NCBI RefSeq assembly: GCF_004339525.1
Contig: NZ_SMGE01000001.1
Span: forward strand, 4,092,001-4,156,000
DNA length: 64,000 bases
Source: Flavobacterium sp. 90
GTDB taxonomy: Bacteria > Bacteroidota > Bacteroidia > Flavobacteriales > Flavobacteriaceae
Direction: 5' to 3'
A program made the translations under genes and the position numbers. The notes below the pieces were generated by a model that saw only the letters and a list, made by a program, of their open reading frames with translations, was not told the DNA's origin and searched no databases. Below are positions 9,521 to 27,857 of this stretch, piece by piece; the first letter of the stretch is position 1; every line of letters begins with the position of its first letter.

Positions 9521-9545
9521 TTTCTGTTAATATTAGTTAATCAAG

Positions 9546-9576: not shown

Positions 9577-9759
9577 TTTTGGGGCAATTCGATTGGATTT
9601 TAAATTTAATATCAAATTTTTGTTAATTCTATTTGTTTGATTGTTAAGCGGTTTAAAAAAAAGATTGAAAAAAGTGAAAAAAAAGCGCCGAAATAGTTGT
9701 GAGATATGGAATGTTGTCTTACATTTGCAACCGCAAAACAGAACACGTTTCTTGAGCTT

Positions 9760-9843
9760 GGAGAGGTGCCAGAGCGGTAATGGAGCAGATTGCTAATCTG
9801 TCGACGAGTAATCGTCGCCAGGGTTCGAGTCCCTGTCTCTCCG
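9760..9843 (+). tRNA. tRNA-Ser (GCU)
   Basis: Cloverleaf with acceptor GGAGAGG and TCTCTCC, anticodon stem CAGA/TCTG around loop TTGCTAA (anticodon GCT), a long class II variable arm and T loop GGGTTCGAGTCCC. Discriminator base is G, as usual for serine. CCA is not encoded. Confidence 0.93.
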
Positions 9844-9925
9844 CGGAATAATTTGCTTATTGGGTATTGAAGAAATTCGATTATCGTGTCCTGATTAAAA
9901 TTAGGAAAAGCACTGATAGAATTTT

Positions 9926-10000
9926 CGGGGTGTAGCGTAGCCCGGTTATCGCGCCTGCTTTGGGAGCAGGAGGCCGCAGGTTCGAATCCTGCCACCCCGA
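9926..10000 (+). tRNA. tRNA-Pro (UGG)
   Basis: Cloverleaf with acceptor CGGGGTG and CACCCCG, anticodon stem CCTGC/GCAGG around loop TTTGGGA (anticodon TGG), T arm CAGGTTCGAATCCTG and discriminator A. CCA is not encoded. Confidence 0.94.
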
Positions 10001-10032
10001 CTAAAACTTTGCCATAAAGTTTTAAAACAAAT

Positions 10033-10106
<74 letters not shown>

Positions 10107-10109
10107 CAT

Positions 10110-10140
10110 CAAAAGCCATTCAAACGAGTGGCTTTTTTGT
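10110..10140 (+). terminator. Terminator after tRNA-Arg copy A
   Basis: Hairpin AAAAGCCATTC/GAGTGGCTTTTTT with a short loop and T run. Near-identical hairpins with GCCACTC/GAGGGGC follow array copies D (10390-10419) and E (10517-10548). An unrelated terminator at 50574-50604 has the same core. Confidence 0.75.
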
Positions 10141-10152
10141 TTTATTAAAAAT

Positions 10153-10220
10153 GGACGCATAGCTCAGCTGGATAGAGCATCCCGATTTTGAATCGGGACG
10201 GTCAGAAAGTTAAGTTTTAA
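10153..10220 (+). pseudogene. Defective tRNA-Arg copy B: 5' half with replaced anticodon arm
   Basis: The acceptor 5' strand and D arm are identical to tRNA-Arg (GGACGCATAGCTCAG...), but the anticodon arm is the hairpin TCCCGATTTTGAATCGGGA, whose loop would read TTG (Gln). After it the T arm and 3' acceptor are absent and replaced by an A/T-rich tail. It cannot form a full cloverleaf. It is the first of two 80-bp direct repeats with copy C. Confidence 0.75.
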
Positions 10221-10232
10221 GTTTAAAAATAA

Positions 10233-10300
10233 GGACGCATAGCTCAGCTGGATAGAGCATCCCGATTTTGAATCGGGACGATCAGAAGGTTAAGTTTTAA
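10233..10300 (+). pseudogene. Defective tRNA-Arg copy C: 5' half with replaced anticodon arm
   Basis: A direct repeat of copy B at exactly 80-bp spacing with only a few substitutions (for example CGATCAGAAGG for CGGTCAGAAAG). It has the same tRNA-Arg 5' half, the same CCCGATTTTGAATCGGG arm and the same loss of the T arm and 3' acceptor. Recent tandem duplication is the simplest origin. Confidence 0.75.
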
Positions 10301-10312
10301 GTTTAAAAATAA

Positions 10313-10386
<74 letters not shown>

Positions 10387-10438
10387 CATAAAAAAGCCAC
10401 TCAAATCGAGGGGCTTTTTGTTTTATACAAAATGGTTT

Positions 10439-10513
10439 AAGTGGATAGCTCAGCTGGATAGAGCATCCCGATTTCAATCGGGACGGTCGAAGGTTCGAAT
10501 CCTTCTGCGTTCA
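10439..10513 (+). pseudogene. Defective tRNA-Arg copy E: altered acceptor and six-base anticodon loop
   Basis: D arm, T arm and 3' acceptor (TGCGTTCA) match tRNA-Arg exactly. The 5' acceptor strand has become AAGTGGA, which pairs poorly with the 3' strand. The anticodon arm is TCCCGATTTCAATCGGGA, leaving a six-base loop if five stem pairs form. It is followed by a copy of the terminator hairpin (10517-10548). Unlikely to be charged. Confidence 0.7.
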
Positions 10514-10566
10514 CATAAAAAAGCCACTCAAATCGAGGGGCTTTTTTGTTTTATACAAAATGGTTT

Positions 10567-10641
10567 AAGTGTATAGCTCAGCTGGATAGAGCATCCCGAT
10601 TTCAATCGGGACGGTCGAAGGTTCGAATCCTTCTGCGTTCA
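10567..10641 (+). pseudogene. Defective tRNA-Arg copy F
   Basis: A direct repeat of copy E at 128-bp spacing, with the same TCCCGATTTCAATCGGGA arm and intact T arm and 3' end. The 5' acceptor strand is AAGTGTA, with mostly wobble or mismatched pairs. It is the last unit of the array and lies 26 bp before the GIY-YIG gene. Confidence 0.7.
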
Positions 10642-10655
10642 CATAGAAAAACTAA

Positions 10656-10922
<267 letters not shown>

Positions 10923-11371
10923 TTCACATAAATAAAGCATCTCTATCTTTAATCAGGATTTTTTAAGATTCGAAAAATTCTATTTTATATTTAACCCCAT
11001 TGATTTTAAGGGGCATTTGTTTTGTTTTCTGCTTTTGTGTCAGTTACTCCACTTAGAATTTATTATAGTCCTATTTTTTATCAGGAATAACGGGTTTTAT
11101 TCTGATTGAACATGTTTTTTGCTCGATTGTGCTGTAAAAGTACCAAGATAAAAATAACGTAAATTATTTGTTAAGATAAGCTGTAAGATTTAGCTTTAAA
11201 ATTTTGAACATGCCACTAAACTATATATAATAATATTACGTATATTTTGGAAAGTTGTAGTATTCATTGATGAAAAATTGTCAAAATGACATTTCTGATA
11301 CTTTTTATTGAGATAGATTATAGAAGTCTTAGAAAATTAATAATATTGTAAAATCTAATAATTACTTTTAA
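10923..11371 (+). other. Gap before the ECF sigma gene
   Basis: 449 bp without a gene. It begins with a sequence like the tRNA-unit tail (TTCACATAAATAAAGC). A weak CCCC...GGGG hairpin followed by T-rich sequence lies at about 10994-11013. The right half must hold the sigma-gene promoter. TATATTTTGG near 11230 is one base off the TAnnTTTG spacing; no convincing box was found. Confidence 0.4.
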
Positions 11372-11968
11372 ATGGCTATAAATTCTAATCTTGACGAAAA
11401 TAAACTTTTGTTTGAATTGTCGCAGGGAAACGAAATAGCCTTCACAACTTTATACAATCGATATAAAAACGTTGTTTACTCATCTGCTTTGAAAATTACC
11501 AAATCCAAAACCCTTTCGGAAGAGGTGGTTCAGGATGTATTTATGAAAATTTGGCTTAAAAAAGAAGAACTTACAGATATAACAGATTTTGAAAGTTATC
11601 TTTTTATTTCGGGTAGAAACCAGATTTTCAATATGATTAAAAAAATAGCAAGAGAAGATACTTTTAAAAATGTTCTGAAACATACTGATTCGTCATTTAA
11701 TGCAACTGATTCTTTTTTAAAAGATGAACAGTATAATATACTTTTAAGCCAAATCTTACTCAAACTTCCGCCACAGCAACAAAAAATATATCAAATGGCT
11801 AAAGTTGAAGGGCTCAGCCATCAGAAAATTGCTGAAATACTTGATATATCGCCTTTAACTGTAAAGAAACATATGGCACAAGCCTTAAAACTAATTCGCG
11901 TGCAACTTGCGCGTCATATAAATCTTATTATAATAAGTTTTGGTTATTTTTTTACTCAAAATATATAA
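11372..11968 (+). CDS. ECF RNA polymerase sigma-70 factor (SusC-linked)
   Basis: A 198-aa ECF sigma factor with region 2 at about 25-90 (FTTLYNRYKNVVYSSALKI, then EEVVQDVFMKIW) and region 4 at about 125-180 (LPPQQQKIYQMAKVEGLSHQKIAEILDISPLTVKKHMAQAL). It directs RNA polymerase to specific promoters when released by its anti-sigma factor. The neighbours downstream are FecR and an STN-containing SusC, the standard trans-envelope signalling trio of Bacteroidota. It therefore probably controls the transporter operon at 13365. The 211-bp gap to fecR suggests a separate or weakly coupled transcript. Confidence 0.92.
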   Translation: MAINSNLDENKLLFELSQGNEIAFTTLYNRYKNVVYSSALKITKSKTLSEEVVQDVFMKIWLKKEELTDITDFESYLFISGRNQIFNMIKKIAREDTFKNVLKHTDSSFNATDSFLKDEQYNILLSQILLKLPPQQQKIYQMAKVEGLSHQKIAEILDISPLTVKKHMAQALKLIRVQLARHINLIIISFGYFFTQNI

Positions 11969-12179
11969 TTTAATTGTTTGTTTTTGAGTGGATTATCTTT
12001 TTGTTTAAAATAATTTTACTTTTTTTTAACTTTAGACTACTCCTTCCTGTCTTTTAAATTGTCTTTATAATATACGGGCTTCATAAACTCTAAGAAGAAA
12101 ACTATTTTTCAATTTTAGAAATATTGATATTAATTGCCTGAATACATAAAAACCTACTACAAATAGTAATTATAAAGAG

Positions 12180-13220
12180 ATGCAAAAAGAAGAATTCGAA
12201 AAATTATTTGGTCGTTATCTGCAAGGTAAACTTTCAGATCAAGAATTGGAACAATTCATGCAAATTGTAAAAACCGATCAATATGATGTTTTTATAAAAG
12301 ATGGAATTTATACTTCATTAAAAGAAAGTGAAGTTTCAGATTTTATGGATGAGAAACAGGGAGAAATTATTCTGAATAAAATCTTATCTCAATCTAAAGA
12401 CGAATCAAAACTAATAACTTTTTCTCCTGAAAGAAGAAATAGAAAAAAGATACTTCGTATTCTTTTTGCAGCGGCTAGTATTGCTCTATTTGCAGCTATT
12501 GGCAGTACTTTTCTTTTTAAATCAAATCCTGTAGTTCCTGCTCAGGTTGAACAACATGTTGTTGCGGAAGAAAATGCATTAATTGCTTTCAGCGGAAAAC
12601 AATTAATTCATTTACCTGACGGAAGTACTGTTCTTTTAAATGATAACAGTAGTCTGGAATATAACAAGAACTCTTTTGACGATAAAACGCGTGAAGTAAC
12701 ACTTACCGGAGAAGCTTATTTTGATATTCACCACAACGAAAAAAAGGCTTTTATAGTACATACCGGCAAGGTTCAGACTAAAGTTTTAGGTACGGCTTTT
12801 AATATTAATGCACGCAATTCGTCTGCTAATATTGAAGTTACGGTTACAAGAGGTAAAGTACAGGTTGGAGACACTGAGAAAATATATGGTGTAATTACTC
12901 CTAATCAACAGATTAAAGTTGACAAAAACACCTTGAGCTTTGAACAGAATAATGTAAGTGCTGCTGTAGTGACACAGTGGAAAAGCAATTACCTGATTCT
13001 GGATGATATCAATATGGAAGCAGCGGCAGCACTTATTGCTCAAAAATATAAGGTAAAAATTTCAATGAATGAAAATATTAAAAACTGCCGAATAACAGCG
13101 AGTTTCCTAAATGACGAAGATTTAGATCATATTCTAAAAGTAGTATGTAGTGTTATTGAAGTCAATTATAGCTACACTGATTCAGGATCCATTATTTTGG
13201 AAGGGAAAGGCTGTCAATAA
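12180..13220 (+). CDS. FecR-family anti-sigma factor
   Basis: A 346-aa inner-membrane regulator: a cytoplasmic anti-sigma part (residues 1-88), one transmembrane segment at about 91-113 (LRILFAAASIALFAAIGS), then the periplasmic FecR domain (HLPDGSTVLLNDNSSLEYN and EVTLTGEAYFDIHHNEKKAFIVHTGKVQTKVLGTAFNI split across 150-210) and a C-terminal DUF4974-type region. It should hold the sigma factor at 11372 until contacted by the STN domain of the SusC protein downstream. Normal length and no defect seen. Confidence 0.92.
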   Translation: MQKEEFEKLFGRYLQGKLSDQELEQFMQIVKTDQYDVFIKDGIYTSLKESEVSDFMDEKQGEIILNKILSQSKDESKLITFSPERRNRKKILRILFAAASIALFAAIGSTFLFKSNPVVPAQVEQHVVAEENALIAFSGKQLIHLPDGSTVLLNDNSSLEYNKNSFDDKTREVTLTGEAYFDIHHNEKKAFIVHTGKVQTKVLGTAFNINARNSSANIEVTVTRGKVQVGDTEKIYGVITPNQQIKVDKNTLSFEQNNVSAAVVTQWKSNYLILDDINMEAAAALIAQKYKVKISMNENIKNCRITASFLNDEDLDHILKVVCSVIEVNYSYTDSGSIILEGKGCQ

Positions 13221-13287
13221 AAACGAAGTCTGAAAAAATTAAATAAAAATTAATCTAAAAAAAAAAGCCTATAAGTACAAAAAAAAA

Positions 13288-13312
13288 CCATCTGGCTTCT
13301 GACCCCAGATGG
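13288..13312 (+). terminator. Hairpin between fecR and susC (terminator or attenuator)
   Basis: Arms CCATCTGG (13288-13295) and CCAGATGG (13305-13312) with a 9-base loop, preceded by a run of A and followed by CGAATATTT without a T run. It lies in the 144-bp leader between FecR and SusC. It may reduce readthrough or mark a processed leader; a classical terminator is not certain. Confidence 0.45.
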
Positions 13313-13364
13313 CGAATATTTCTAATAATTAAAATCGAACTAACCATTAAAAACATGCAAATTT

Positions 13365-16300
13365 ATGAAATTACGCTGTAAAACAACCATGTTTGACAGG
13401 GAAAAAAAATCATCTTTTTTCCGCTTGTCAAAAAAAACCATTATGATCATGCGCATCAGTTTATTCCACATTTTCTTATTGACCTGCGGCGCTCCGATGG
13501 TCTTTGCGACCGAAATGAGCAGTCAGAATTTAGAATCAATATCCGTTGATATAGAACTTCATAATCAGGATATTAAAACTTTATTTAAGACAATAGAAAA
13601 TAAAACAGGATTACTGTTTGCTTACCAACCTCAGATCATAAAAGATTTTCCGAAGGTTAACACTCCAAAAGGACGCAGAAGTGTGAGTGATATTTTAGAC
13701 ATTGTATTTCAGGGCAGTAATTTGGTCTACAAACAAGTAGACAAAAATGTCGTGATTTATAAAAAGGAAACCGTCAAAGCTGATGTGAATGTTTCGAAAA
13801 AAGAAAATCGGGAAGATGCAAATTACATGCTTGCAGGAAAAATTCTCGATGAAAAAGGTCAGCCGTTGCCAGGGGTAACTGTTATGCTTGTAGGAGGGAA
13901 CAAAAGTGGAATTTCTGATTTTGACGGTCAATTTTATATTGAACTACCTTCTGGTAAACACGTACTTAAAGTGTCTTATTTAGGATATAAAACGCAGCAG
14001 GTTACAGTTGAAAATCAAGTTTCGATTACTATTAATATGCAGCCCGATTTGGCCAAATTAGATGAAATCGTAGTTATTGGTTACGGAACAACAACCAGAA
14101 GGACTTCAACTGGATCTGTAGTTAAAATTACTGCCGAAGATATTGAAAAACAACCTGTAACTAATATTTTACAAACATTACAAGGAAGAACTCCCGGAGT
14201 TTTTGTAACGCAAACTTCTGGTTATGCAGGAAGTGATATGAATATTAGTATTCGAGGAAGAAACTTTATTGCAGGAAATAATTTACCTCTTTATATTGTT
14301 GACGGAGTGCCTTATATTGGTGATGATATCAAAGAACAAGTACAGGATCAAAATGTTATCAGAGGTGCTCAAAAATCGACTAGCCCTTTGAATATTATCA
14401 ATCCAAATGACATAGAAAGCATTGAAATCCTGAAAGATGCAGATGCAACAGCAATCTATGGTTCAAGAGGTGCCAATGGTGTGGTTCTTATTACTACTAA
14501 AAAAGGAAAAGCCGGAAAAACAGAGTTTACGATAACAACTAACTCAGGAGTTTCTGAAGTAGCACATATGGTAAAAACTTTGGGTACACCAGCTTACCTG
14601 AATATGCTTCAAACGGCTTTAGACAATAATGGAGATGTTGCTGATGTTGATAGTAATGGTATTGCTATTACAGATTGGGATCCAAAAGCTCAAACAAACT
14701 GGCAGAAAAAATTAATAGGCGGTACAGCTAATTTTAATAATTATTCGGCTTCTTTGAAAGGTGGAAATGAGACAACAAATTTTCTTTTAAGTGGTGCTTA
14801 TCATAAAGAAACTACGGTTGTTCCGGGAAATTTTAGCTATGATAAATTTTCGACTAACTTCAATATTAATCACAGTACTCTGGATAAAAAATTAAAAATT
14901 GGAGCTTCTGTAATTTTTGCGGCAGATAATAATAAACTACCATTTTTTGATATCACAACATATGCGGTAGGTACGGCTCCAAACCGTCCGTTATACAATG
15001 CAGATGGAAGTTATTATTGGTCACCGGATTACTTTAGCGATATAAATCCACTTGCTGCTTTAGATAAAAGAGTAGAGGATAAAGGAATAAACTTAATAAC
15101 AAGTTTAAGCCTTCAGTATGAAATTGCAAAAGGTTTTTCTTTTAAAACAGATTTAGGATACGGACGAGCTCAAATGCAAACGGAACAATTTATGCCGGCA
15201 TCTGCAACAAATCATGCTTATGCTGAAGCAAACGATATGAGTTTAAACTTTCAAAGATCTTATACTGTTTCGACTAATAATACTAATAATTTTACTATTG
15301 AGCCTCAACTTAATTATACAACAGAATTATGGAAAGGAAACTTAACAGCACTTGTTGGAGGTTCATGGCAAAATAGAAAATCAGAAATGCCTTCTTATGT
15401 GAGTTCAAATGGTTATAGTTCAGATAATTTAATTGGAAATCTGGGGACTGCAGAAAACATAACGGCTAATAACGGAAGTGTAGAATATAAATACATTTCT
15501 CTTTTTAGCAGACTTAACTATAATATTGCCAACAAATACATTCTGAATGTTAACTTTAGAAGAGATGGTTCATCACGTTTTGGAGCAAATAACCGTTTTG
15601 GGAATTTTGGATCTGTTGGTGGTGCGTGGGTATTTACACAGGAAAATTTCTTAAAAAATGCTGACTGGTTAAGTTTTGGAAAACTACGCTCTAGTTATGG
15701 AGAAATAGGAAGCGACGAAATTGGAGATTATCAATATGCTGAAACCTTTGATACCCGTAATTATGGTAATGGAAACGCTTCTATGGCTGCAGCCAGAATT
15801 GCAAACCCTAATATCAAATGGGGATTAACAAAGAAATTTGAAGTTGCACTTGATTTAAGTTTCCTAAACGACCGTATTTCTTTTACTACTGCGTATTATA
15901 AAAACACTTCGAGTAATCAATTGGTAAACTATACTCTTAGCGCTCAGGCAGGTTTTACAACTTATACGGCAAACTTACCAGCCAAAGTTGAAAACGAAGG
16001 ATGGGAGTTTACGCTTGAAACAACAAATATTCGTACTAAAAACTTAAACTGGTCGACGTCTTTCAATATTTCGACAAATTCAAATAAATTACAATCATTT
16101 CCAGGCATAGAGTTTACGAGTTATTACTCTCAATACGTTGTTGGAAAACCTTTAGGCGGAATGTATTTGTATAATTTTACAGGTGTAAACGCTAATGGTA
16201 TTGCTCAATTTGAAGATGTAAACGGAGATGGCAGAATCTCCAGAGGATTTGCTGAAACTGGTGTAGGAGACAGAAAATATTATGGTCCTAGTTATCCGCA

Positions 16301-16757
16301 ATATTACGGCGGTATCTCAAATACTATTAGTTATAAAGATTTTACACTTGACTTTTTGTTTCAATTCGTAAAACAAAATGGTAGTACTTTAATGTCTTCA
16401 ACCGGAGGACAGCCGGGTTATCCTTACTCAACTGCAAATTTTCAAGTGGATGAATATAATAACTATATAGCACAAGGAAATGTTTTAAGTTCAGGTTTCC
16501 AAAACAGTTTTTTTAATTATATAGGATCAAATGCTACAGTTGTAGATGCATCGTATATAAAACTTAAAAATGTAAGTGCTTCCTATCAAATTCCTTTAGA
16601 TGAGACAACTAAGAAGTTTTTGCAAAGCGTTCGTGTTTCAGTACAAGGACAAAACTTAGTGACTTTTACTAAATACAAAGGACTTGATCCTGAAACTCAA
16701 GGTTTGGCTTTGCCACCATTACGTACAATAACTTTTGGAACACAGTTTACATTTTAA
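13365..16757 (+). CDS. SusC/RagA TonB-dependent outer-membrane transporter with STN signalling domain
   Basis: An 1130-aa transporter. Parts in order: a long N-terminus with the signal segment at about 27-49, an STN domain at 60-132 (IELHNQDIKTLFKTIENKTGLLFAYQ), a carboxypeptidase-like regulatory domain at 156-225, a TonB box-like DEIVVIGYGT at 233-242, the plug, and a 22-strand barrel ending in TFGTQFTF. The STN domain is what contacts FecR, so the upstream sigma/anti-sigma pair senses substrate through this protein. It sits 11 bp before its SusD partner. The neighbours are an ABC exporter and an M16 protease instead of glycoside hydrolases, so a peptide-like ligand is more likely than a glycan. 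Confidence 0.92.
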   Translation: MKLRCKTTMFDREKKSSFFRLSKKTIMIMRISLFHIFLLTCGAPMVFATEMSSQNLESISVDIELHNQDIKTLFKTIENKTGLLFAYQPQIIKDFPKVNTPKGRRSVSDILDIVFQGSNLVYKQVDKNVVIYKKETVKADVNVSKKENREDANYMLAGKILDEKGQPLPGVTVMLVGGNKSGISDFDGQFYIELPSGKHVLKVSYLGYKTQQVTVENQVSITINMQPDLAKLDEIVVIGYGTTTRRTSTGSVVKITAEDIEKQPVTNILQTLQGRTPGVFVTQTSGYAGSDMNISIRGRNFIAGNNLPLYIVDGVPYIGDDIKEQVQDQNVIRGAQKSTSPLNIINPNDIESIEILKDADATAIYGSRGANGVVLITTKKGKAGKTEFTITTNSGVSEVAHMVKTLGTPAYLNMLQTALDNNGDVADVDSNGIAITDWDPKAQTNWQKKLIGGTANFNNYSASLKGGNETTNFLLSGAYHKETTVVPGNFSYDKFSTNFNINHSTLDKKLKIGASVIFAADNNKLPFFDITTYAVGTAPNRPLYNADGSYYWSPDYFSDINPLAALDKRVEDKGINLITSLSLQYEIAKGFSFKTDLGYGRAQMQTEQFMPASATNHAYAEANDMSLNFQRSYTVSTNNTNNFTIEPQLNYTTELWKGNLTALVGGSWQNRKSEMPSYVSSNGYSSDNLIGNLGTAENITANNGSVEYKYISLFSRLNYNIANKYILNVNFRRDGSSRFGANNRFGNFGSVGGAWVFTQENFLKNADWLSFGKLRSSYGEIGSDEIGDYQYAETFDTRNYGNGNASMAAARIANPNIKWGLTKKFEVALDLSFLNDRISFTTAYYKNTSSNQLVNYTLSAQAGFTTYTANLPAKVENEGWEFTLETTNIRTKNLNWSTSFNISTNSNKLQSFPGIEFTSYYSQYVVGKPLGGMYLYNFTGVNANGIAQFEDVNGDGRISRGFAETGVGDRKYYGPSYPQYYGGISNTISYKDFTLDFLFQFVKQNGSTLMSSTGGQPGYPYSTANFQVDEYNNYIAQGNVLSSGFQNSFFNYIGSNATVVDASYIKLKNVSASYQIPLDETTKKFLQSVRVSVQGQNLVTFTKYKGLDPETQGLALPPLRTITFGTQFTF

Positions 16758-16768
16758 ATCTAAAAAAC

Positions 16769-18139
16769 ATGAAAAATATTTCTACTAAATATATATCTAT
16801 ATTTTCGTTTTTTCTTTTATTAGGACTTACGAGCTGTGATAATGCTTTGGATGTTGATCTTCCAAGCAATCAATTGTCATCAGAAAGTGTGTACTCTACA
16901 GAGTCAACCGCTGAGGCTGCTGTAAACGGAATCTACCAAAGCATGGTTGCAGATTTTTATTATTACAGAGTTCACGCTGTTCTTGGGCAAACATCTGATG
17001 AATTAGTGCCTAGAACAGGTATTGCAAATGTTTTCAGCTCTAATGAAATCCCTGAGACTGACGGAACAATAAACACTAATTGGGGCGAATTGTATAAAAC
17101 AATCTATAATGCTAATAACGTTGTTGAAGGAGTTACTAAAAGCACTACACTTAATGCTGCTAAAAGCAAAAATTGGATTGCCGAAGCAAAATTTTTAAGA
17201 GCATATTCTTATTTCTACCTGACCAATCTTTGGGGTAATGTACCTTTGGTATTGACTACAAATGTAGATGTATCAGCATTGTTGCCACAATCCTCGCAAG
17301 AAACGGTTTATGCACAAATTGTACTGGACTTAACTGATGCTTCAAAAGATCTTCCAACAGATTACAAAAATTATAAAGGCGAAAGAATCAGAGCTACAAA
17401 ATGGGCTGCTGAAGCTTTATTGGCAAGAGTAAATCTTTATCAGGAAAAATGGACAGAGGCTGCTGCTCATGCAACTGCAGTAATCAACCAGTCAGGTTCT
17501 TACAAAATGATTACGGATCTTGAACATAATAACAGTCCGTTTATTTCCGACAATAATGAAGCTATTCTTCAAATACCATATTTTAATGTTGATTATACTT
17601 ATGAAGGATCTTCGGTATTTACAACCGGTGGTACTTTTTTACTAAGAAAAGGCAATGCACTTTTTGAAACTGGTGATGCCAGAAAAACAAATTGGACAAT
17701 CGATATTAAAGATAGAAATGGTGTGTTTTTAGGTATTGCGCCTTATAAATATCAAAACGGTTTTAATAGTTCTCCTATAGAACGTTCAACCGTATTAAGA
17801 TTAGCAGAACTTTATTTAATAAGAGCCGAAGCCAGAGTAAAATCAAATGATATTACCGGAGCTCAGCAAGATATAAACGTAATTAGAAACAGAGCTTTGT
17901 TGGGATCTACTACTTTAACAGATCCAAATCAATTGTTAGATTTAATTGCTCTGGAAAGACAACGTGAGTTTTTTGCAGAAAACGGACACCGTTGGCTGGA
18001 TCTTAAAAGAACCGGAAAACTAGATGAAACACTTTCTGTTTTACCGGGTAAAATCTGGAAAAGTACAGATAGTTTATATCCTATTCCAGAGCCGGCTATT
18101 CGCTCTAATCCCTTCTTAATCCAAAATTCAGGATACTAA
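16769..18139 (+). CDS. SusD/RagB outer-membrane lipoprotein
   Basis: A 456-aa SusD-family substrate-capture lipoprotein with a lipobox (LLGLTSC, Cys23). The residues after Cys, DNALDVD, are acidic, as in surface-exported lipoproteins of this phylum. The SusD TPR-rich core is visible (AEAKFLRAYSYFYLTNLWGNVPLVL), and so is the C-terminal motif LIALERQREFFAENGHRWLDLKRTG. It caps the SusC barrel encoded 11 bp upstream. A hairpin at 18153-18189 separates it from the ABC ATPase gene, so the downstream genes may be expressed at a lower level. Confidence 0.92.
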   Translation: MKNISTKYISIFSFFLLLGLTSCDNALDVDLPSNQLSSESVYSTESTAEAAVNGIYQSMVADFYYYRVHAVLGQTSDELVPRTGIANVFSSNEIPETDGTINTNWGELYKTIYNANNVVEGVTKSTTLNAAKSKNWIAEAKFLRAYSYFYLTNLWGNVPLVLTTNVDVSALLPQSSQETVYAQIVLDLTDASKDLPTDYKNYKGERIRATKWAAEALLARVNLYQEKWTEAAAHATAVINQSGSYKMITDLEHNNSPFISDNNEAILQIPYFNVDYTYEGSSVFTTGGTFLLRKGNALFETGDARKTNWTIDIKDRNGVFLGIAPYKYQNGFNSSPIERSTVLRLAELYLIRAEARVKSNDITGAQQDINVIRNRALLGSTTLTDPNQLLDLIALERQREFFAENGHRWLDLKRTGKLDETLSVLPGKIWKSTDSLYPIPEPAIRSNPFLIQNSGY

Positions 18140-18152
18140 TTATTAAAAGTAA

Positions 18153-18189
18153 CGCAAGAATGTGTTTTCAGTAAAAATACATTCTTGCG
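18153..18189 (+). terminator. Hairpin between susD and the ABC genes
   Basis: Perfect 11-bp arms CGCAAGAATGT (18153-18163) and ACATTCTTGCG (18179-18189), followed by ATTTT. It is likely a partial terminator or an mRNA-stabilising stem inside the operon; the ABC gene starts 16 bp later. Confidence 0.6.
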
Positions 18190-18204
18190 ATTTTAAAAAA
18201 CACT

Positions 18205-19152
18205 ATGGAAACAACAATTGTAAGAGTTGAGGACTTGTCACATCAATACAGTAAGGATTGGGCAATACAAAATATAAGTTTTGAAATCAAAGAAAACAGA
18301 ATTTTAGGTCTTTTAGGATCAAATGGAGCAGGAAAATCAACCACAATGAATATCCTTTGCGGTGTATTAAATCAAACCAAAGGAAATATTTTTATTGACG
18401 GAATTAATCTGAAAGAAAACCCTGTTGAAGCCAAAAAGCTAATTGGTTTTTTACCGCAAACACCACCTTTGCATTTGGATTTAACCGTAAACGAATATTT
18501 AATTCACTGCGCAGAATTACGTCATGTAAAAAAAGAAGATTTGCACAAAGCTGTTGAAAGAGCTAAAGAACAATGTGGAATTGCACATTTCAGCAATCGC
18601 CTTATTCGTAATCTTTCAGGCGGTTATCGTCAGCGTGTGGGAATTGCTCAGGCGATAATTCACGAACCAAAATTGGTAGTTTTAGATGAACCTACAAACG
18701 GATTAGATCCCAATCAGATTTTAGAAGTTAGAAATTTAATTAAGAAAATAGCTAAAGATAAAGCTGTGATTTTTTCTTCGCATATTCTTTCTGAAGTTCA
18801 GGCAACTTGTCAGGATATCAGAATGATCGAGAACGGACACATGGTTTTTTCTGATACACTTGACGCTTTCAACAATTATATTGAAGCCGACAAATTAACT
18901 GCAAGTTTTGAAAATCCGCCAAGTATTGAAGCATTAACTGATATTGCCGAAATTACAGCTGCTGTCTTTCTTTCTCCTAAAAAAGTTCAGATAACCTTTA
19001 CCGGAACACAGGAAATTGCCGAAAAAATTATTTCGCTAAGCGTATATAATAATTGGAAATTAAGAGAAATTCAATTTGAAAAAGTCTCTCTTGATGAAAT
19101 TTTTGCTCAGTTATCTAAAAAAGCACCTTCTAAAAACGCTATTCTTTCTTAA
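18205..19152 (+). CDS. ABC transporter ATP-binding protein (GldA/NosF-like)
   Basis: A 315-aa ATPase with Walker A GSNGAGKST (38-46), Q-loop FLPQTPP, signature NLSGGYRQR, Walker B LVVLDEPTNGLDP and the switch His in IFSSHILSE. The C-terminal 80 residues are an extension usual in exporters of the ABC-2 type. It resembles GldA and other ATPases that pair with GldF-like permeases. It should power the fused permease encoded 13 bp downstream. Confidence 0.9.
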   Translation: METTIVRVEDLSHQYSKDWAIQNISFEIKENRILGLLGSNGAGKSTTMNILCGVLNQTKGNIFIDGINLKENPVEAKKLIGFLPQTPPLHLDLTVNEYLIHCAELRHVKKEDLHKAVERAKEQCGIAHFSNRLIRNLSGGYRQRVGIAQAIIHEPKLVVLDEPTNGLDPNQILEVRNLIKKIAKDKAVIFSSHILSEVQATCQDIRMIENGHMVFSDTLDAFNNYIEADKLTASFENPPSIEALTDIAEITAAVFLSPKKVQITFTGTQEIAEKIISLSVYNNWKLREIQFEKVSLDEIFAQLSKKAPSKNAILS

Positions 19153-19165
19153 AACAAAAAAACAA

Positions 19166-21433
19166 ATGAAAACAATATATAGAATTGCTAAAACAGAACT
19201 CAACACGATGTTTTATTCGCCGGTTGCGTGGGTTGTTTTAGTTATATTTTCGATCCAGTCAAGCTGGAAATTCTTTGACTCTCTGGAACGCTTTGAGAAA
19301 TCTCAAAAAATGGGAGAAGGAATGAGTAATTTATCACAAATTATTTTTTCAGGTTTCAGTGGTTTATATACAGAAATGCAGAATTATTTATACTTATATG
19401 TTCCGCTTTTAACAATGGGATTAATAAGCCGTGAAATCAACAGCGGTTCTATCAAACTGTTGCTTTCATCTCCTATAAAAATAAAAGATATCGTATTAGG
19501 AAAATATCTTGCCATTGCAGCTTATTGTTTATTATTCGTTGCAATATTGGGATTACAAGTTGTGATTGCTTATTTCTCTATTGATCATTTAGATTTAAAA
19601 TTTGCCATTTCAGGATTAATAGGGTTGTATTTATTAGTATGTACCTATGCCGCAATCGGTCTGTTTATGTCTTGTCTGACTTCTTACCAAGTCGTTGCAG
19701 CCATAAGTACTTTGGTTGTTTTAGCAGGTTTAAATTTTATTGGAAAACTTTGGCAGGATATCGAATATGTAAAAGACATTACTTATTTCCTTTCGATTGC
19801 CGGACGTGCCAATGAAATGCTTGAAGGTCTTTTGATTAGTAAAGATGTATTATACTTTATTTTGGTAAGCGGTCTTTTTATCGGACTTAGTATTTACAAA
19901 TTACAAACTGGTAGAGATGCGCAATCCGTTTCTAAAAGAGCCATAAAATATACGGCTTTAATAAGTGTGGTTCTGGCACTTGGTTACATCACATCAAGAG
20001 CACCATTGACGATGTATTATGACATGACCAGAACAAAAGACAGAACGCTTACAGAGAATAGTTTAAATATTGTCAAAAAAATAGATGGTCCAATTAAGAT
20101 TACGACTTATGTAAACTTATTAGATATCAATTATTATATGGCTATGCCGTATTCTCAAAATCAGGATATTTCAAGTTTTGAAAACTACACCCGTTTTTTG
20201 CCCCAAACAGAAATGGAATATGTGTATTATTATGATACTTCGGGAAATGAAGCCTTGTATGCACAAAATCCCGGATTAAGCGATAAACAGCTTGCTGATA
20301 AATTGATCGAAACGCAGGATTTAAAGCTCAAAAAATTATATTCTCCTGAGGAAATTAAAAAAGTTATTGATTTAAAACCAGAACAAAACCGAGTTGTAAG
20401 AACCGTAGAATACAACGGAAAGAAGACATTTTTAAGAATGTATGATGATTTGTTCAAAGTTCCGAGCGAAAAAGAAATCTCAGCATCTTTGAAACGTTTA
20501 GTGGTTCCGAATCCAAAAATTGTTTTTGCAAGCGGAAACATGGAACGCAGCATTGACAAAAACGGAGACAAAAATTACAAAACAGGATTTAATGAAATCA
20601 CTTTTAGATATTCTCTAATCAATCAGGGATTTGATGTTTCAACAGTAGATATTAATGCGCAGGATATTCCGCAACAAGCTACTATTTTAATTATTGCCGA
20701 TCCAAAAACGGAATTAAGCCAAGGCGCAATTGACAGAATTTCTAAATATATAGACCAAGGAAAAAACTTAATGCTTTTGGCAGAACCGGAAACCAATTCG
20801 GCTTTAGCTGCAATTACGGATAAATTAGGTTTAAGTTTTACAAAACAAACATTAGTGCAGGAAAGCGAAACTAATTCTCCTGATTATCTCGTAACAGATT
20901 TTCTAAAAGATGCAAATCCTGGTATTATTAAATTTAGTAAAACCAGAAGCAATAATCCGATTCCGCTTTTAGGAAGCAGCGGAATTATAACTACCAAAGA
21001 TGCCGGATTTAAAGTAACGCCACTTTTAAAAACTAATAATCAGCCTGCTTGGGAATCTCAGAGCGGAATTACTTCATTTCCTCAAGATTTGAAAAAGCAA
21101 CCTTCTGTAAAAGGAGTTCCGCTTGTTGTGGCTTTAACGCGAAATGTAAATGGAAAATCTCAAAAAATAATTGTAGCCGGAGATGCTGATTTTATGGGCA
21201 ATGCCGAATTAAGCCGTGCCGGATCTGGAACATTTCAGTTTGTAACCGATCTTTTTAGCTGGTTTAGCAATTACGAATTCCCAATTGATACAACTCGTCC
21301 CGAAAATACCGATAAGAAAATAACCATAAATTCAAATCAGGTTTTCATCAATAAAATTGTATTCATCGGATTATTTCCATTATTGATCATATTAAGCGGC
21401 GCTTTTATACTTATTAGAAGAAACAGAAGATAA
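19166..21433 (+). CDS. ABC-2 permease fused to GldG-like periplasmic domain (GldF-GldG fusion type)
   Basis: About 755 aa. The N-terminal 270 residues are an ABC-2 permease with six membrane segments (for example VAWVVLVIFSIQSSW and LLVCTYAAIGLFMSCLTSY). A seventh (YTALISVVLALGYITS) leads into a large periplasmic region that starts with the GldG hallmark LTENSLNIVKKIDGPIKITTY. A final segment near the C-terminus (IVFIGLFPLLIILSGAFIL) ends in RRNRR. In the gliding machinery of Flavobacterium GldF and GldG are separate genes; here they are one chain. An in-frame ATG at 19076 lies inside the ATPase gene in another frame and is not credible; 19166 gives the standard MKTIYRIAKTEL permease start. 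Confidence 0.85.
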   Translation: MKTIYRIAKTELNTMFYSPVAWVVLVIFSIQSSWKFFDSLERFEKSQKMGEGMSNLSQIIFSGFSGLYTEMQNYLYLYVPLLTMGLISREINSGSIKLLLSSPIKIKDIVLGKYLAIAAYCLLFVAILGLQVVIAYFSIDHLDLKFAISGLIGLYLLVCTYAAIGLFMSCLTSYQVVAAISTLVVLAGLNFIGKLWQDIEYVKDITYFLSIAGRANEMLEGLLISKDVLYFILVSGLFIGLSIYKLQTGRDAQSVSKRAIKYTALISVVLALGYITSRAPLTMYYDMTRTKDRTLTENSLNIVKKIDGPIKITTYVNLLDINYYMAMPYSQNQDISSFENYTRFLPQTEMEYVYYYDTSGNEALYAQNPGLSDKQLADKLIETQDLKLKKLYSPEEIKKVIDLKPEQNRVVRTVEYNGKKTFLRMYDDLFKVPSEKEISASLKRLVVPNPKIVFASGNMERSIDKNGDKNYKTGFNEITFRYSLINQGFDVSTVDINAQDIPQQATILIIADPKTELSQGAIDRISKYIDQGKNLMLLAEPETNSALAAITDKLGLSFTKQTLVQESETNSPDYLVTDFLKDANPGIIKFSKTRSNNPIPLLGSSGIITTKDAGFKVTPLLKTNNQPAWESQSGITSFPQDLKKQPSVKGVPLVVALTRNVNGKSQKIIVAGDADFMGNAELSRAGSGTFQFVTDLFSWFSNYEFPIDTTRPENTDKKITINSNQVFINKIVFIGLFPLLIILSGAFILIRRNRR

Positions 21434-21444
21434 AAAATATCAAA

Positions 21445-24258
21445 ATGAATACTAAAAAAAATATCATCCTTGGAATTTTGTTTTTGTCTTTTAGCGGAGC
21501 ATTTGCTCAATTCAAAACCACAATTCCGCTGAATAAAAACGTTACAACCGGAAAATTAAAAAATGGTTTGACCTATTATATTCTGCATAATGAAGAGCCA
21601 AAAGACAGAGCGAGTTTTTATTTTATTCAAAACGTTGGCGCTATTTTAGAAGATGACAATCAAAACGGATTGGCACATTTTCTGGAACATATGGCTTTTA
21701 ACGGAACAGAACATTTTAAAGGAAAAGGAATCATTAAAATGCTGGAAAAAAACGGAGTAAGTTTTGGTAAAGATATCAACGCTTTTACCGCTCAGGACGA
21801 AACCGTTTATAACATTAGTACCGTTCCGGTTAACAACCAAAAACTAATTGATTCTACGCTTTGGGTGCTGCACGATTGGTCAGGTTCATTATCGTTAACA
21901 GATGCTGAAATTGATGCCGAAAGAGGCGTAATCAGAGAAGAATGGAGAACCAGAAGAACAAGTGATTTCCGTTTGAAACATCAAACAGATGCCGTTTTAT
22001 ACAAAGGTTCAAAATACAGTAAAAGAGACGTTATTGGAGATTTAGATATCATCAATAATTTTAAATATCAGGAATTACGCAATTACTATAAAAAATGGTA
22101 CAGACCAGATTTACAAGCTGTTATTATAGTTGGAGATATTGACGTAAAAGAGATGGAGCAAAAAGTAAAAACGATATTCTCCGGAATTCCGCTTATGAAA
22201 AAAGCTGCTGTCAGAACTTATGAAACAATACCGAAACACGATGAATTGTATTTTGGAACTGCCTCTGATAAAGAAGCTTCTTCAACCGTAATTACTTTGA
22301 GATATATTTTTGATGAACCATTGGTAAAAGACAGTTTGGTAATACGCAAAAATGTAATGAACTCTTTTTATACCAATATTTTAAACAATCGTTTTAAAGA
22401 ATTGATCTTAAAAAATCAAGGTTCAAGTTTGAATTTGAGCAGTTATTTTGGCGGAATTTCAAGATTAAGCAACAGTTATAATATTTCGGCTTCAGCCAAA
22501 AAAGGAAAATCTTTAGAAGCATTTGAAGAAGCTTATACTGAAGCAGAACGTTTGAACCGATTTGGTGCTGTACAAGCCGAATTAGACCGAACAAAAAAGC
22601 TTTTTATCAGTTCATACGATGATTTTATCAGCAACAAAGATAAAGTAGACAGTGATAGTTGGGCGGATAAATTGATTGATTATTTCTTAAAAGCAAAACC
22701 GTTTCTAACGGCGGAAGACGATTATAAGCAAATTGTAGGCATTATAAATAGTATTTCGCTTGACGAATTAAATGCGTATGCAAAAACGATTCAGAAGCCA
22801 ACAAATCAGGTTGTTTTAGTAACAGGTTCTGATGAAGATAAAAATAGTTTTCCTACCAAAGAAGCAGTTGTTAACGTAATGAAAAAGGTAGAAAGCAAAA
22901 CGTTGGAACCTTATGTTAAAAAGGTAAATAATGCACCTTTAGTAGCAAAAGAACTAAAACCTGCTGCGATTAAAAAAACATTTGAAGTAGCCGGAATCAA
23001 AGATGCAAAAGGATATATTTTAGAAAATGATGCTAAAATAATTGTATTGCCAACAACGTATTCTCAAGATCAGATTGTGTTTTCGGCATATTCAAAAGGT
23101 GGAAAATCATTGGTAAAAACAGAAGATTTATCCTCAGCAGAAATTGCAACTACAATTGCAAAATCATCTGGTTTAGGAAATTTTGATAACATTGGTTTAA
23201 AAGAAAAACTAACCGGAAAAGTTGCGCAGGCGAGTCCGTTTATTGGCGAAAATACACAAGGTTTTCAGGGAAGTTCTAATAAAGCCGATTTCGAAACAAT
23301 GCTTCAGTTGGTTTATCTTTCTTTTGAATCGCCTCGCTTTGATCCAAATATTTTCAATATTCTAAAAGAGCAATATAAAAACCGTTTAGAAACTATTAAA
23401 AAAGATAACGGAAGCGTTTTTAAAGACTCAGTTGATTTGGCAAATTCGAATCATAATCCAAGAACTTTTTTATTCAACGATAAATTTCTGGAAACAATCG
23501 ACCTGAAAAAAGCGGAGAATATCTACCGTGACCGAATTAAAAATGCAGCTGATTTTACATTTATTTTCGTTGGAAATATTCCGGATTCAGCATTAGAATT
23601 AATTCAGAAATACATCGGAAATATCAATTCTAATCCAGCTTTAAAAGAGAATTTCAAAGATCATAATATCGAACCTGCAAAAGGTAAAACAGTAGTTCAT
23701 TTCAAACGTCCGATGGAAGTTGTTAAATCGACGGTTTATCTTAGTTTGACTGGAAAAACAGAATACAGCAAAGAAAATGCATTGAGTATTTATATCATAG
23801 GCGAAATATTATCAAAGCGATTTTTGCAAACCATTCGTGAAGAAGAAGGCGGAAGTTATGGTGTAAATGTAGGAGGAAATCTGGAGCTAATTCCAAAACC
23901 TACTTTTGATCTTTCCCTGACTTTTGATTGTGATCCTGATAAACAAGAAAAATTAATGCAGATTGTCTGGAAAGAATTAAATGATTTAAAAACGAATCCA
24001 GTCAATGCAAATGATTTAGAAGATATTAAAAAAGCACTTTTAAAGAGCAGAGAAGAATCACTTAAAACCAATTCTTTTTGGAACAATACGATTTACAATA
24101 ACAGCTTAAATCAGATTCCGTTTTTGCAGGATGAAGAATATAAAAATTTAATTTCTAAAATTAATCAAAAAACTATTCAGCAGTTTAGTAAGCACGTCTT
24201 GGATAGTTCTAGTAGTGTCGAAGTTATTATGAGCCCTGAAAGCCAATCAGGGAAGTAA
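21445..24258 (+). CDS. Periplasmic M16 (insulinase/pitrilysin) zinc protease
   Basis: A 937-aa two-halved M16 protease with a signal peptide (LGILFLSFSGAFAQ). The inverted zinc motif HFLEH is at residues 78-82 and the third ligand is probably Glu159 in DAERGVIREEW. The C-terminal half (about 500-930) is the inactive partner with EEEGGSYGVNV. Such enzymes degrade short to medium peptides inside a closed chamber. The gene lies 11 bp after the fused permease and ends at a strong terminator. Its presence is the main argument that the SusCD pair upstream handles peptides. Confidence 0.9.
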   Translation: MNTKKNIILGILFLSFSGAFAQFKTTIPLNKNVTTGKLKNGLTYYILHNEEPKDRASFYFIQNVGAILEDDNQNGLAHFLEHMAFNGTEHFKGKGIIKMLEKNGVSFGKDINAFTAQDETVYNISTVPVNNQKLIDSTLWVLHDWSGSLSLTDAEIDAERGVIREEWRTRRTSDFRLKHQTDAVLYKGSKYSKRDVIGDLDIINNFKYQELRNYYKKWYRPDLQAVIIVGDIDVKEMEQKVKTIFSGIPLMKKAAVRTYETIPKHDELYFGTASDKEASSTVITLRYIFDEPLVKDSLVIRKNVMNSFYTNILNNRFKELILKNQGSSLNLSSYFGGISRLSNSYNISASAKKGKSLEAFEEAYTEAERLNRFGAVQAELDRTKKLFISSYDDFISNKDKVDSDSWADKLIDYFLKAKPFLTAEDDYKQIVGIINSISLDELNAYAKTIQKPTNQVVLVTGSDEDKNSFPTKEAVVNVMKKVESKTLEPYVKKVNNAPLVAKELKPAAIKKTFEVAGIKDAKGYILENDAKIIVLPTTYSQDQIVFSAYSKGGKSLVKTEDLSSAEIATTIAKSSGLGNFDNIGLKEKLTGKVAQASPFIGENTQGFQGSSNKADFETMLQLVYLSFESPRFDPNIFNILKEQYKNRLETIKKDNGSVFKDSVDLANSNHNPRTFLFNDKFLETIDLKKAENIYRDRIKNAADFTFIFVGNIPDSALELIQKYIGNINSNPALKENFKDHNIEPAKGKTVVHFKRPMEVVKSTVYLSLTGKTEYSKENALSIYIIGEILSKRFLQTIREEEGGSYGVNVGGNLELIPKPTFDLSLTFDCDPDKQEKLMQIVWKELNDLKTNPVNANDLEDIKKALLKSREESLKTNSFWNNTIYNNSLNQIPFLQDEEYKNLISKINQKTIQQFSKHVLDSSSSVEVIMSPESQSGK

Positions 24259-24296
24259 AATACTTTAGATTCATTTTTATTTTATTAGTCATTAAA

Positions 24297-24324
24297 GGTT
24301 GTCTTCCCCAAGGCAGCCTTTTTT
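24297..24324 (+). terminator. Terminator of the SusCD-ABC-M16 operon
   Basis: Stem GGTTGTCTT (24297-24305) with AAGGCAGCC (24310-24318), including two G-T pairs, a CCCC loop and a following TTTTTTG run. Confidence 0.8.
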
Positions 24325-24448
24325 GTTTTGTACCATTTAATTTTATAATAAAAAAAAACAAAAACTGACTGATTTTCAGTAAGAATACAGGCTTTTTTTA
24401 GACATTCTCCAGGAAAAGAAAATAATAGGTTTTGAAATTTTCGATGTT

Positions 24449-25195
24449 TTACCAGCTTCCTTTTAGACCTTCTTTCAAAGCATTGTTATATTTTTCTAAA
24501 TCAAAACTATACAAATCCGGAGCTTTATGTGCGCCACCTTTTCTTGATTCATCTAGTTTAACTAAAATATCATAACGCAATATCTTGCGATAAAAATTAC
24601 CACGATTGAGTTTTTTGCCCAAAATAGCTTCATACAATTTTTGAAGTTCCGGCATCGTAAATTTCTCCGGTAAAAGATTATAACCAATCGGGTGATTGTT
24701 TAATTGCTCGCGAACGGTAAGCAAAGCCTTGTCAAGAATGCTTCTGTGATCCATCATAAACGCAGGAAGATTATCCACAGATTGCCATTCGACATTAGTA
24801 GAATATTGGTCAATAACTAAATTTACTTTAGAATATTCTGCCAATGCATAATATCCAATTGAAACAAATCGCTGTTTGTTCCAGATGGTGTCATCATGTT
24901 GCTCAAAAGCACTTTCAGAACGTTTAAGATTTCCAAAAGTATAAAATTGCTGTAAGTAAATATTCTCTGTTCCGGTTCTGTCTTTTAAGATGCGAACTGC
25001 AGCATCATCAACGTTTTCTTCTTTTTTTACATAACCTCCCGGAAGCCCCCAAGAATCCAAATCCTTCATCTTTACCGTTAAAACATGAAGCGAGTTTTCT
25101 TTAAAGCTAAAAATGGCACAGTCGATAGAAAGAGTCGGTATATATTTTTTAAACGACTCTTCAGATTGTATTTCAAGTATCTTTTTTAATTCCAT
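24449..25195 (-). CDS. Nudix-winged-helix transcriptional regulator (NrtR/AraR-like)
   Basis: A 248-aa protein with an N-terminal Nudix domain (about 20-145) and a C-terminal winged helix (about 160-240, with LPEKFTMPELQKLYEAILGKKLNRGNFYRKIL). The Nudix box reads GGYVKKEENVDDAAV then RILKDRTG: the catalytic glutamates of REUxEExG are replaced by Ile, Asp and Arg. It is therefore likely a ligand sensor without hydrolase activity, as in the NrtR family that controls NAD or sugar metabolism in many bacteria. It is divergent from a TonB receptor and GH3 operon, which it probably controls through the palindrome at 25533. Confidence 0.85.
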   Translation of the reverse strand: MELKKILEIQSEESFKKYIPTLSIDCAIFSFKENSLHVLTVKMKDLDSWGLPGGYVKKEENVDDAAVRILKDRTGTENIYLQQFYTFGNLKRSESAFEQHDDTIWNKQRFVSIGYYALAEYSKVNLVIDQYSTNVEWQSVDNLPAFMMDHRSILDKALLTVREQLNNHPIGYNLLPEKFTMPELQKLYEAILGKKLNRGNFYRKILRYDILVKLDESRKGGAHKAPDLYSFDLEKYNNALKEGLKGSW

Positions 25196-25532
25196 TCGGC
25201 TATAATTAATTCCAAATTTAAGCTTTTTGAAAGTTAAAAGTCAAATCACTACAATTTTTTCTGACATTTTGTTTTTAGGCGAAAGAAAAAATTGAGTTTA
25301 TAAAAGGGATAAATTCCGAACCTCTTTTTTGTCCTCATTGTTTTAAGGTCATCCTGACTTTAACCACTGTTTTCAATACTTTACGCAAACGAGGTAGTTG
25401 TTTTTTTTCTGTTTTAGAACTATGCAATGATAATTCTTCTTTATTGTTTTTATGGAATTTAAAGGTTGATAATAATGCGATTATGAAAATTATTAAGGTA
25501 TTTATTTGTTGATATGAGAATTTGTTTTTAAT

Positions 25533-25553
25533 ATTGCTTCATAATGAAGCAAT
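25533..25553. promoter_or_regulatory. Perfect 21-bp palindrome, candidate operator of the Nudix-type regulator
   Basis: Arms ATTGCTTCAT and ATGAAGCAAT around a single central A, 34 bp before the TonB receptor start. NrtR-type regulators are known to bind palindromes of about this length. The rest of the 391-bp divergent gap (25196-25586) shows no gene and no clear TAnnTTTG box. Confidence 0.6.
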
Positions 25554-25586
25554 GAAACTAAACTTACTTAACTTAAATACCACATT

Positions 25587-27845: not shown

Positions 27846-27857
27846 ATTTTATTTCGC

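Follow-up and report, generated by a model that had tools for sequence, protein, structure and literature searches.

That a bacterium can take in a whole protein as nutrition by way of a TonB-dependent transporter has been documented for ferredoxin in Pectobacterium, and related clusters occur across Proteobacteria (PMC6793856). The Fus system (FusA/FusC/FusD), involved in this ferredoxin uptake, and YddB-PqqL of E. coli are referred to as "protease-associated import systems"; both link a TonB-dependent transporter gene to a full-length periplasmic M16 protease, display a patchy distribution with sporadic protease association and, in the case of Fus, also include an inner-membrane transporter (PMC6793856). 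The cassette described here, which occupies positions 11372..24258 of the window (the whole stretch of 64,000 nucleotides from Flavobacterium sp. 90 that was analysed), resembles them in these respects, including the type of its protease. An initial annotation of this DNA had named no characterised system of such composition, thereby overlooking Fus and YddB-PqqL, which follow the same logic of a TonB-dependent transporter plus an M16 protease. The cassette differs from them in its SusC/SusD gate, its ABC-2 permease with a GIFT domain, its ECF/FecR control and its Bacteroidota host; FusD is of another kind than an ABC-2 permease carrying a GIFT domain.

The cassette comprises seven open reading frames, all on the + strand, and the following features:

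11372..11968, + strand, ECF sigma factor, Sig70_bacteroi1-like (TIGR02985 125.2 bits, just missing the cut-off of 126.4; Pfam Sigma70_r2 and r4_2 pass their cut-offs)
12036..12069, + strand, candidate promoter element in the ECF-FecR gap, box ACTACTCC-N17-GTCTTTATA
12180..13220, + strand, FecR anti-sigma/sensor (Pfam FecR 67.1 bits, FecR_C 43.1 bits)
13288..13312, + strand, imperfect inverted repeat CCATCTGG-N9-CCAGATGG, a candidate regulatory element some 75 nt ahead of the start of SusC
13365..16757, + strand, SusC/RagA TonB-dependent transporter with an N-terminal STN-like stretch (TIGR04056 742.7 bits)
16769..18139, + strand, SusD-like surface lipoprotein (SusD-like_3 105.6 bits, SusD_RagB 89 bits; lipobox-like N-terminus by eye)
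18153..18189, + strand, conserved RNA hairpin in the SusD-ABC gap (36 loci aligned)
18205..19152, + strand, ABC ATPase of a clade separate from GldA (Pfam, NCBIfam and identity comparison)
19166..21433, + strand, fusion of an ABC-2 permease with an IFT52-like domain (GIFT, ABC_transp_aux) on the periplasmic side and a C-terminal helix (ATG start taken; the ORF list gives a longer frame from a TTG at 19076)
21445..24258, + strand, full-length M16 metalloprotease of PqqL/FusC type (signal-peptide-like N-terminus by eye)
24294..24321, + strand, terminator-like hairpin of 12 pairs at the end of the unit

This layout bears out much of the initial annotation, which had read seven genes on one strand, gaps of 11, 65, 13 and 11 bp from SusC to M16, a terminator at the end and no glycoside hydrolase; Pfam detects none among the seven proteins. 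The families of all seven products are confirmed by Pfam and NCBIfam, with qualifications for the ABC pair and for the STN region. The transporter had been called an STN-SusC, and the SusC part of this assignment holds, whereas the STN part, at 23.1 bits, stays below the Pfam cut-off of 28.4; the other FecI/FecR/STN-type signalling parts, ECF and FecR, are present. Across the window and 37 further loci, the SusC-SusD gap measures 10-12 bp in all 38, and a terminator-like hairpin, scored with a custom pattern of this analysis, follows the 3' end of M16 in 35/38, against 0.75 expected in base-shuffled sequence. Gaps and terminator patterns suggest that the genes from SusC to M16 would be expressed as a single transcript. 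Their order (SusC-SusD-ABC-permease/GIFT-M16) is kept in 37/37 named Flavobacterium-group loci and in 12/12 congener loci, whose strains partly overlap the former set, and one genome of another family (G1131) carries the identical seven-gene order. The seven genes are one real conserved unit, as had been proposed, and the loss of order among relatives that was expected to speak against it did not appear.

Among the components, the M16 protease ties the cassette to the described import systems. Its best matches are 9ldy, PqqL and FusC, it shares with the latter two the full length and the HxxEH site together with a signal-peptide-like N-terminus recognised by eye, and residues H78, E81, H82 and E159 are invariant in both alignments (A2 and A5). 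The genetic linkage of a TonB-dependent transporter to M16, as in Fus and YddB-PqqL, is present in order in all 37 loci. Because the protease is of PqqL/FusC type, the cassette may by analogy work like these systems, yet it is not a member of them, since its gate belongs to SusC/RagA (742.7 bits) and not to the FusA/YddB family. In agreement with this assignment, the 11 PDB sequences matching SusC at E<=0.001 are labelled SusC, RagA, Omp121 or TonB-linked/TonB-dependent outer membrane protein, and none is FusA or YddB. The SusC/RagA signature and the adjoining SusD lipoprotein make this a SusC/SusD pair, an architecture shared with RagAB and other SusCD pairs; to our knowledge, M16 or ABC/GIFT genes do not occur in those loci. 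The nearest solved structure to SusC is 8aa4 (323 bits), which we take to be a glycan transporter; RagA, presumably a peptide transporter, follows with 240 bits. Taken by itself, the gate therefore gives no hint of peptides. The same genome also holds a SusC-SusD-thioredoxin-like-S9-M16 operon, similar in its SusCD pair and in a related M16 (48%); where the cassette has its ABC/GIFT pair, this operon carries genes for a thioredoxin-like protein and an S9 peptidase.

The preferred reading, to which we give an even chance, is that the cassette is a self-contained SusCD-based import-and-cleave system, in which a polypeptide would enter, be cut in the periplasm and have its products handled through the ABC complex. 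The TonB-energised SusC/SusD gate would take up the ligand, a peptide or small protein, the M16 protease would cut it in the periplasm, and an ABC complex of two ATPases and two permeases, each permease with a large periplasmic GIFT domain, would handle the ligand or its products. Bound ligand would signal through the N-terminal region of SusC to FecR and from there to the ECF sigma factor, switching the operon on. Peptide import followed by periplasmic cleavage had already been suggested in the initial annotation; both steps would fit a PqqL/FusC-type protease, with a peptide as the presumed substrate. If true, a SusCD version of this process would carry TonB-dependent protein import into one of the major phyla and offer a testable role for the GIFT-domain ABC complexes, of which little is understood.

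The initial annotation had taken the ABC genes for a GldFG-like exporter, an assignment that finds no support in that form, export being a presumed direction of transport. The cassette proteins do share domain kinds with GldA/GldF/GldG (ABC ATPase, ABC-2 permease, ABC_transp_aux). However, the pair falls below the curated equivalog cut-offs of GldA (284.7 against 402.6 bits) and GldF (83.4 against 288.5 bits), while the genome holds its own GldA, which passes with 502.7 bits, and a GldF-like gene, both separate from the cassette, where permease and GIFT domain are fused. Membership in GldA/GldF/GldG was rejected on these grounds. The window ATPase is 57-64% identical to eight cassette ATPases elsewhere and 35% to the GldA of its own genome. 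The fusion matches PF09822 (ABC_transp_aux) with 80.3 bits, and TIGR03521 (GldG) is absent among the matches listed for it; two relatives do match TIGR03521, but with scores well short of its cut-off. In structure models, the permease half matches the NosY fold and the periplasmic half the IFT52 fold; we know of no GIFT domain in NosY, and the partners of NosFY/NosDFY differ from those of the cassette. A possible though unlikely alternative is a mechanical role in the envelope for the ABC/GIFT complex, similar to that of NosDFY or perhaps GldAFG: it would work on the SusCD gate, or on some partner in the periplasm, and would not move a ligand, while M16 would be an optional protease for processing or quality control. 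Two points speak against this alternative: ABC-2 permeases are mostly exporters, and M16 recurs beside the ABC/permease pair on different branches of its tree.

Outside Flavobacterium, further genera and families carry SusCD together with the ABC/GIFT pair in divergent form, and half of these cases include M16. The protease was not seen in 6/12 permease-carrying genomes or records, its absence being undecidable for one of two G541 loci and one of two G820 loci, which stop at a contig edge. The order of the ABC/GIFT genes is shuffled in other families, and SusCD is still present in 10/12 of these genomes or records; it does not lie beside the ABC/GIFT genes in the two G820 loci, nor adjacent in L099. 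M16 was gained, lost or replaced several times next to these genes, which is also new in this analysis. A near-match search of the ABC-permease stretch against a plasmid collection gave no match. Divergent cassettes also carry DUF4843 and PKD_2 accessory proteins, which were considered as pointers to a known transporter and dropped, as the two from L100 had no meaningful PDB sequence match.

The histories of SusCD and of ABC-permease-M16 are incongruent (AU p 5.5e-119). The SusC barrel and SusD appear to be swapped as a block between species on a stable ABC-permease-M16 chassis; this behaviour as one exchangeable unit is new in this analysis. The sibling SusCD-thioredoxin-M16 loci served as a control, which is small and mixed in outcome: 5 loci were used out of 7 retrieved, and they gave identity correlations of 0.79 for SusD-M16 but only 0.41 for thioredoxin-M16 and 0.70 for SusD-thioredoxin. 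Since the gate genes appear to be swapped while the inner machinery stays, import and cleavage of varied peptides or small proteins is suggested, and ligands would then differ between lineages. Tentatively, and with the chances against it, this may amount to a class of Bacteroidota polypeptide importers with a plug-in gate, in which recombination places new SusC barrels and SusDs onto a chassis of GIFT-ABC and PqqL-like protease, so that one machine serves changing ligands and ABC/GIFT is a new inner-membrane partner of TonB-dependent import. Gate swaps on a more constant chassis also constitute natural experiments, in which the ligand can be sought by comparing strains whose inner genes are alike but whose SusCD types differ.

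Exchange of SusCD alleles is likewise a feature of receptors under attack, and a defence or detoxification role could draw on it: an antimicrobial peptide or bacteriocin would be caught by SusCD and destroyed by M16, whatever arrived at the inner membrane would be expelled by the ABC complex, and ECF/FecR would sense the threat. Lantibiotic-protection and drug-export ATPases are found below their cut-offs among the 25 NCBIfam matches listed for the ATPase, and the PmtCD exporter turns up at E 0.012 and 0.015 among the weak matches by fold. Nevertheless, such protection-ATPase matches are generic to ABC ATPases (187 families matched), Pfam reveals no separate immunity-type gene in the cassette, and SusD-assisted TonB uptake would be a costly answer to a toxin, which leaves this role improbable. 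An ordinary SusCD nutrient locus for glycan or peptide, with the ABC pair and the protease as neighbours by history only, would suit the several permease-carrying loci devoid of M16, the presumed glycan transporter nearest to SusC and the fact that SusCD with ECF/FecR is among the commonest gene arrangements of Bacteroidota, but it is very improbable given the order kept in every named locus, the persistence of SusCD where the ABC/GIFT order is shuffled, the M16 linkage on several branches and the lack of glycoside hydrolases among the seven proteins.

Regulation of the import-and-cleave system proposed here may involve three conserved cis elements, one of which is a covarying RNA hairpin. These elements are new here and, like the exchange of the SusCD block, had escaped the initial annotation. 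The box in the ECF-FecR gap is found in 51/52 loci with cognate ECF/FecR, with a spacing of 17 in 51/51, and its sole exact match in the genome is the window copy. The inverted repeat upstream of SusC is present in 52/54 loci (L046 coming from a separate search), and as an RNA fold it reaches a z of only -2.30. Both elements are missing from L101 and L138, the two loci with foreign ECF/FecR. The repeat was rejected as a genome-wide element: the pattern yielded one other match in the genome, with 3 mismatches, and missed the window copy, which has one extra base. The ECF-FecR gap, which spans 157-361 bp across 37 loci, was checked for a hidden small-peptide gene, but no short frame recurred among the five loci inspected, and an Rfam scan of 9500-25500 returned nothing except tRNAs at gathering score. 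A terminator-like pattern lies between SusD and ABC in 5/38 loci, so the hairpin located there could also end most transcripts; its probable role is to adjust how much SusCD is made relative to the inner machine. Across 36 loci, 98.4% of the cells of this hairpin are paired, 6 of its 11 pairs are changed on both sides, and its fold z is -5.56.

The cassette (window 11372..24258, + strand) comprises seven genes, and the open reading frames, intergenic gaps and terminator-like hairpin described in the initial annotation were all reproduced by ORF and hairpin listing. Pfam and NCBIfam identify an ECF sigma factor, a FecR protein, a SusD protein, an ABC ATPase and an M16 protease among its products, as well as a fusion of an ABC-2 permease to ABC_transp_aux (PF09822, hereafter GIFT). 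The transporter, previously read as an STN-SusC, is indeed SusC/RagA (742.7 bits, NCBIfam), its supposed STN domain scoring under the cut-off for that family. Read by eye, the SusD N-terminus is lipobox-like and that of M16 resembles a signal peptide without a lipobox. Among 150 genomes of the genus, the M16 protein finds a match at E<=1e-200 in 16 and a close orthologue (at least 67% identity) in 13, own genome counted; the order ECF-FecR-SusC-SusD-ABC-permease/GIFT-M16 recurs in 12/12 other genomes with a close orthologue, and the flanks vary among these congener loci. A permease/GIFT alignment scan of named genome contigs gave 39 loci, 37 of them close (by record name, 34 Flavobacterium, two 'Flavobacteriaceae bacterium' and one '[Flexibacter] sp.'); SusC-SusD-ABC-permease-M16 order and strand are kept in all 37 and homologous ECF and FecR genes lie upstream in 36, counts that are not additive with those of the 12-locus set, which shares several strains. 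An NtrR gene lies 3' of the cassette in the window and congener locus L039 and 5' of it in L045 and L047; the stretches examined around the other 9 of the 12 showed none. In the window (24449-30170), a NUDIX/NrtR-type regulator (- strand) faces a 752-aa ORF (25587-27845; no Pfam match) and a 770-aa ORF; this regulator and the 752-aa gene occupy the opposite side of the cassette in loci L045, L068 and L087.

Gap lengths in the window and the 37 loci (38 in all, gene starts picked by script) are 10-12 bp for SusC-SusD, 55-81 bp for SusD-ABC and -17 to 15 bp for ABC-permease, the permease-M16 gap being 2-14 bp in 28 loci, 109-114 in nine and 719 in one, probably L076, whose otherwise complete cassette has a broken M16 frame. 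Another locus, L046, is complete except for a broken SusC frame. Terminator-like patterns follow M16 in 35/38 loci, against 0.75 expected in base-shuffled sequence, occur in the SusD-ABC gap in 5/38, and were not found in the remaining cassette gaps of these loci.

Within this constant arrangement, SusC and SusD (the gate) have a history partly separate from ABC-permease-M16 (the chassis). Single linkage at 76% sorts SusD from 45 loci into groups of 21, 16, 4, 2, 1 and 1. Across 43 loci (L101 and L138 omitted), pairwise identities correlate at 0.85 between SusC and SusD, at 0.72-0.77 among the chassis proteins and at 0.30-0.44 between gate and chassis, FecR being intermediate (0.52-0.63 with the chassis). 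In quick trees, SusD type 1 groups as a single clade for SusCD (support 100) yet is scattered for the chassis (6 changes, 5 forced), where a single type 1 clade is rejected (AU p 5.5e-119); type 2 does not group as one clade, the SusCD tree included (2 changes). In nucleotide profiles of three hand-picked locus pairs (500-base steps), identity drops inside SusC and jumps at the SusD end from 0.68-0.71 to 0.85-0.88, the step with the SusC start being still 0.89-0.92 in two pairs and 0.78 in the third. Chassis steps of 0.74-0.77 in two pairs indicate that the chassis is a mosaic too, and a small control on sibling SusCD loci was mixed in outcome. Gate exchange suggests lineage-specific ligands, or a gate that evades attack by phages or bacteriocins.

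The + strand cassette contains three conserved elements:
12036..12069: element 1, box ACTACTCC-N17-GTCTTTATA in the ECF-FecR gap
13288..13312: element 2, imperfect inverted repeat about 75 nt upstream of SusC
18153..18189: element 3, hairpin between SusD and ABC

Element 1, whose search-script form stops after GTC plus two looser bases, matches the own genome exactly at a single site and occurs in 51/52 loci with cognate ECF/FecR (L085 being the exception), and element 2 in 52/54 (45 distinct sequences; L046 counted from a separate search). Neither was found in L101 and L138, the two loci with foreign ECF/FecR (FecR 29%). Element 3 is present in 36/36 aligned loci (window plus 35 of 37), L101 included, and visible in L138 and L046. 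Its pairing holds in 98.4% of cells vs 32-56% in slid versions; 32 cells changed on both sides vs 8.4 in shuffles, such counts being inflated by kinship of the sequences, and the window copy has a fold z of -5.56. Thus, on a comparison of only two foreign-regulator loci, the first two elements seem to go with the regulators and the third with the structural genes. We infer that the hairpin may set the SusCD level relative to the inner genes.

Protein families and gene order support a scheme in which a ligand would enter via SusCD and be cleaved by M16, with an inner-membrane ABC complex acting downstream of both and the whole controlled by ECF/FecR. A polypeptide is the proposed substrate because M16 is a protease. 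The gate itself offers no confirmation of a polypeptide, since the nearest solved SusC in a PDB sequence comparison, 8aa4, is a glycan transporter. Within limited literature coverage, the closest published kind found is the protease-associated import system, whose surveyed FusA homologues occur throughout Proteobacteria; 'Bacteroidetes' and 'Flavobacter' are absent from the main text of that survey (PMC6793856). The cassette would work in like manner; membership was rejected, and the two are kept apart, because the transporter belongs to a different family. For the Fus system, the hypothesis is that the iron-sulphur cluster, once released, is transported inward by FusD (PMC6793856). By analogy, a FusD-like role is possible for the cassette ABC complex. 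ABC-2 permeases are mostly exporters, which counts against such an inward role.

Outside the genus, partner genes recur in the same or in altered orders. Permease/GIFT alignment searches matched 6/299 genomes of the family (own, one congener, four other genera) and 11/395 of the phylum (six of the genus, five others), and a broader alignment 7/395 of the class (two of the genus, five others); the contig scan added two distant loci, L099 and L100. In the twelve non-Flavobacterium genomes or records (G260, G270, G290, G328, G448, G541, G793, G808, G820, G1131, L099, L100), SusCD shares a gene run with ABC/GIFT in ten (the exceptions being G820 and also L099, where it is not adjacent), and M16 does so in six (G260, G270, G290, G328, G808, G1131), SusD or M16 labels being Pfam-checked on representatives and a gene missing at the contig edges of L136 and L133 being uninformative. 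G1131, from another family, has the window's seven-gene order; four other genera of the family show SusC-SusD-DUF4843-PKD_2-permease-ABC-permease-M16 (accessory genes by Pfam on L126 and L100, remaining labels by similarity), and G808 has ECF-ABC-permease-FecR-SusC-SusD-M16. Order is shuffled but partners are retained, as expected from functional linkage.

In G541 (loci L135 = L148, and L136, the latter labelled by similarity), SusD and ABC are separated by a DUF4397-like protein (29.2 bits, under its cut-off of 30.6), and L135 also has two MutS-domain proteins downstream of the permease. G820 (L132, L133) carries ABC/GIFT genes without SusCD, adjoining in L133 an OMP_b-brl_3 protein and two S9 peptidases. 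A second Flavobacterium M16 (L009, L054; 48% identical in L009) follows SusC, SusD, thioredoxin-like and S9 peptidase genes.

Upstream of the cassette, past a tRNA-Ser/Pro/Arg cluster, window 10143-10642 contains a pair of truncated tRNA-Arg-like copies, a second tRNA-Arg that is intact (10313-10387) and two further tRNA-like copies with a palindromic anticodon arm, for which ARAGORN reports only a two-base anticodon and which Rfam still scores as tRNA. Directly after these copies lies an 84-aa GIY-YIG ORF (PF01541, 59.1 bits; 10668-10922).
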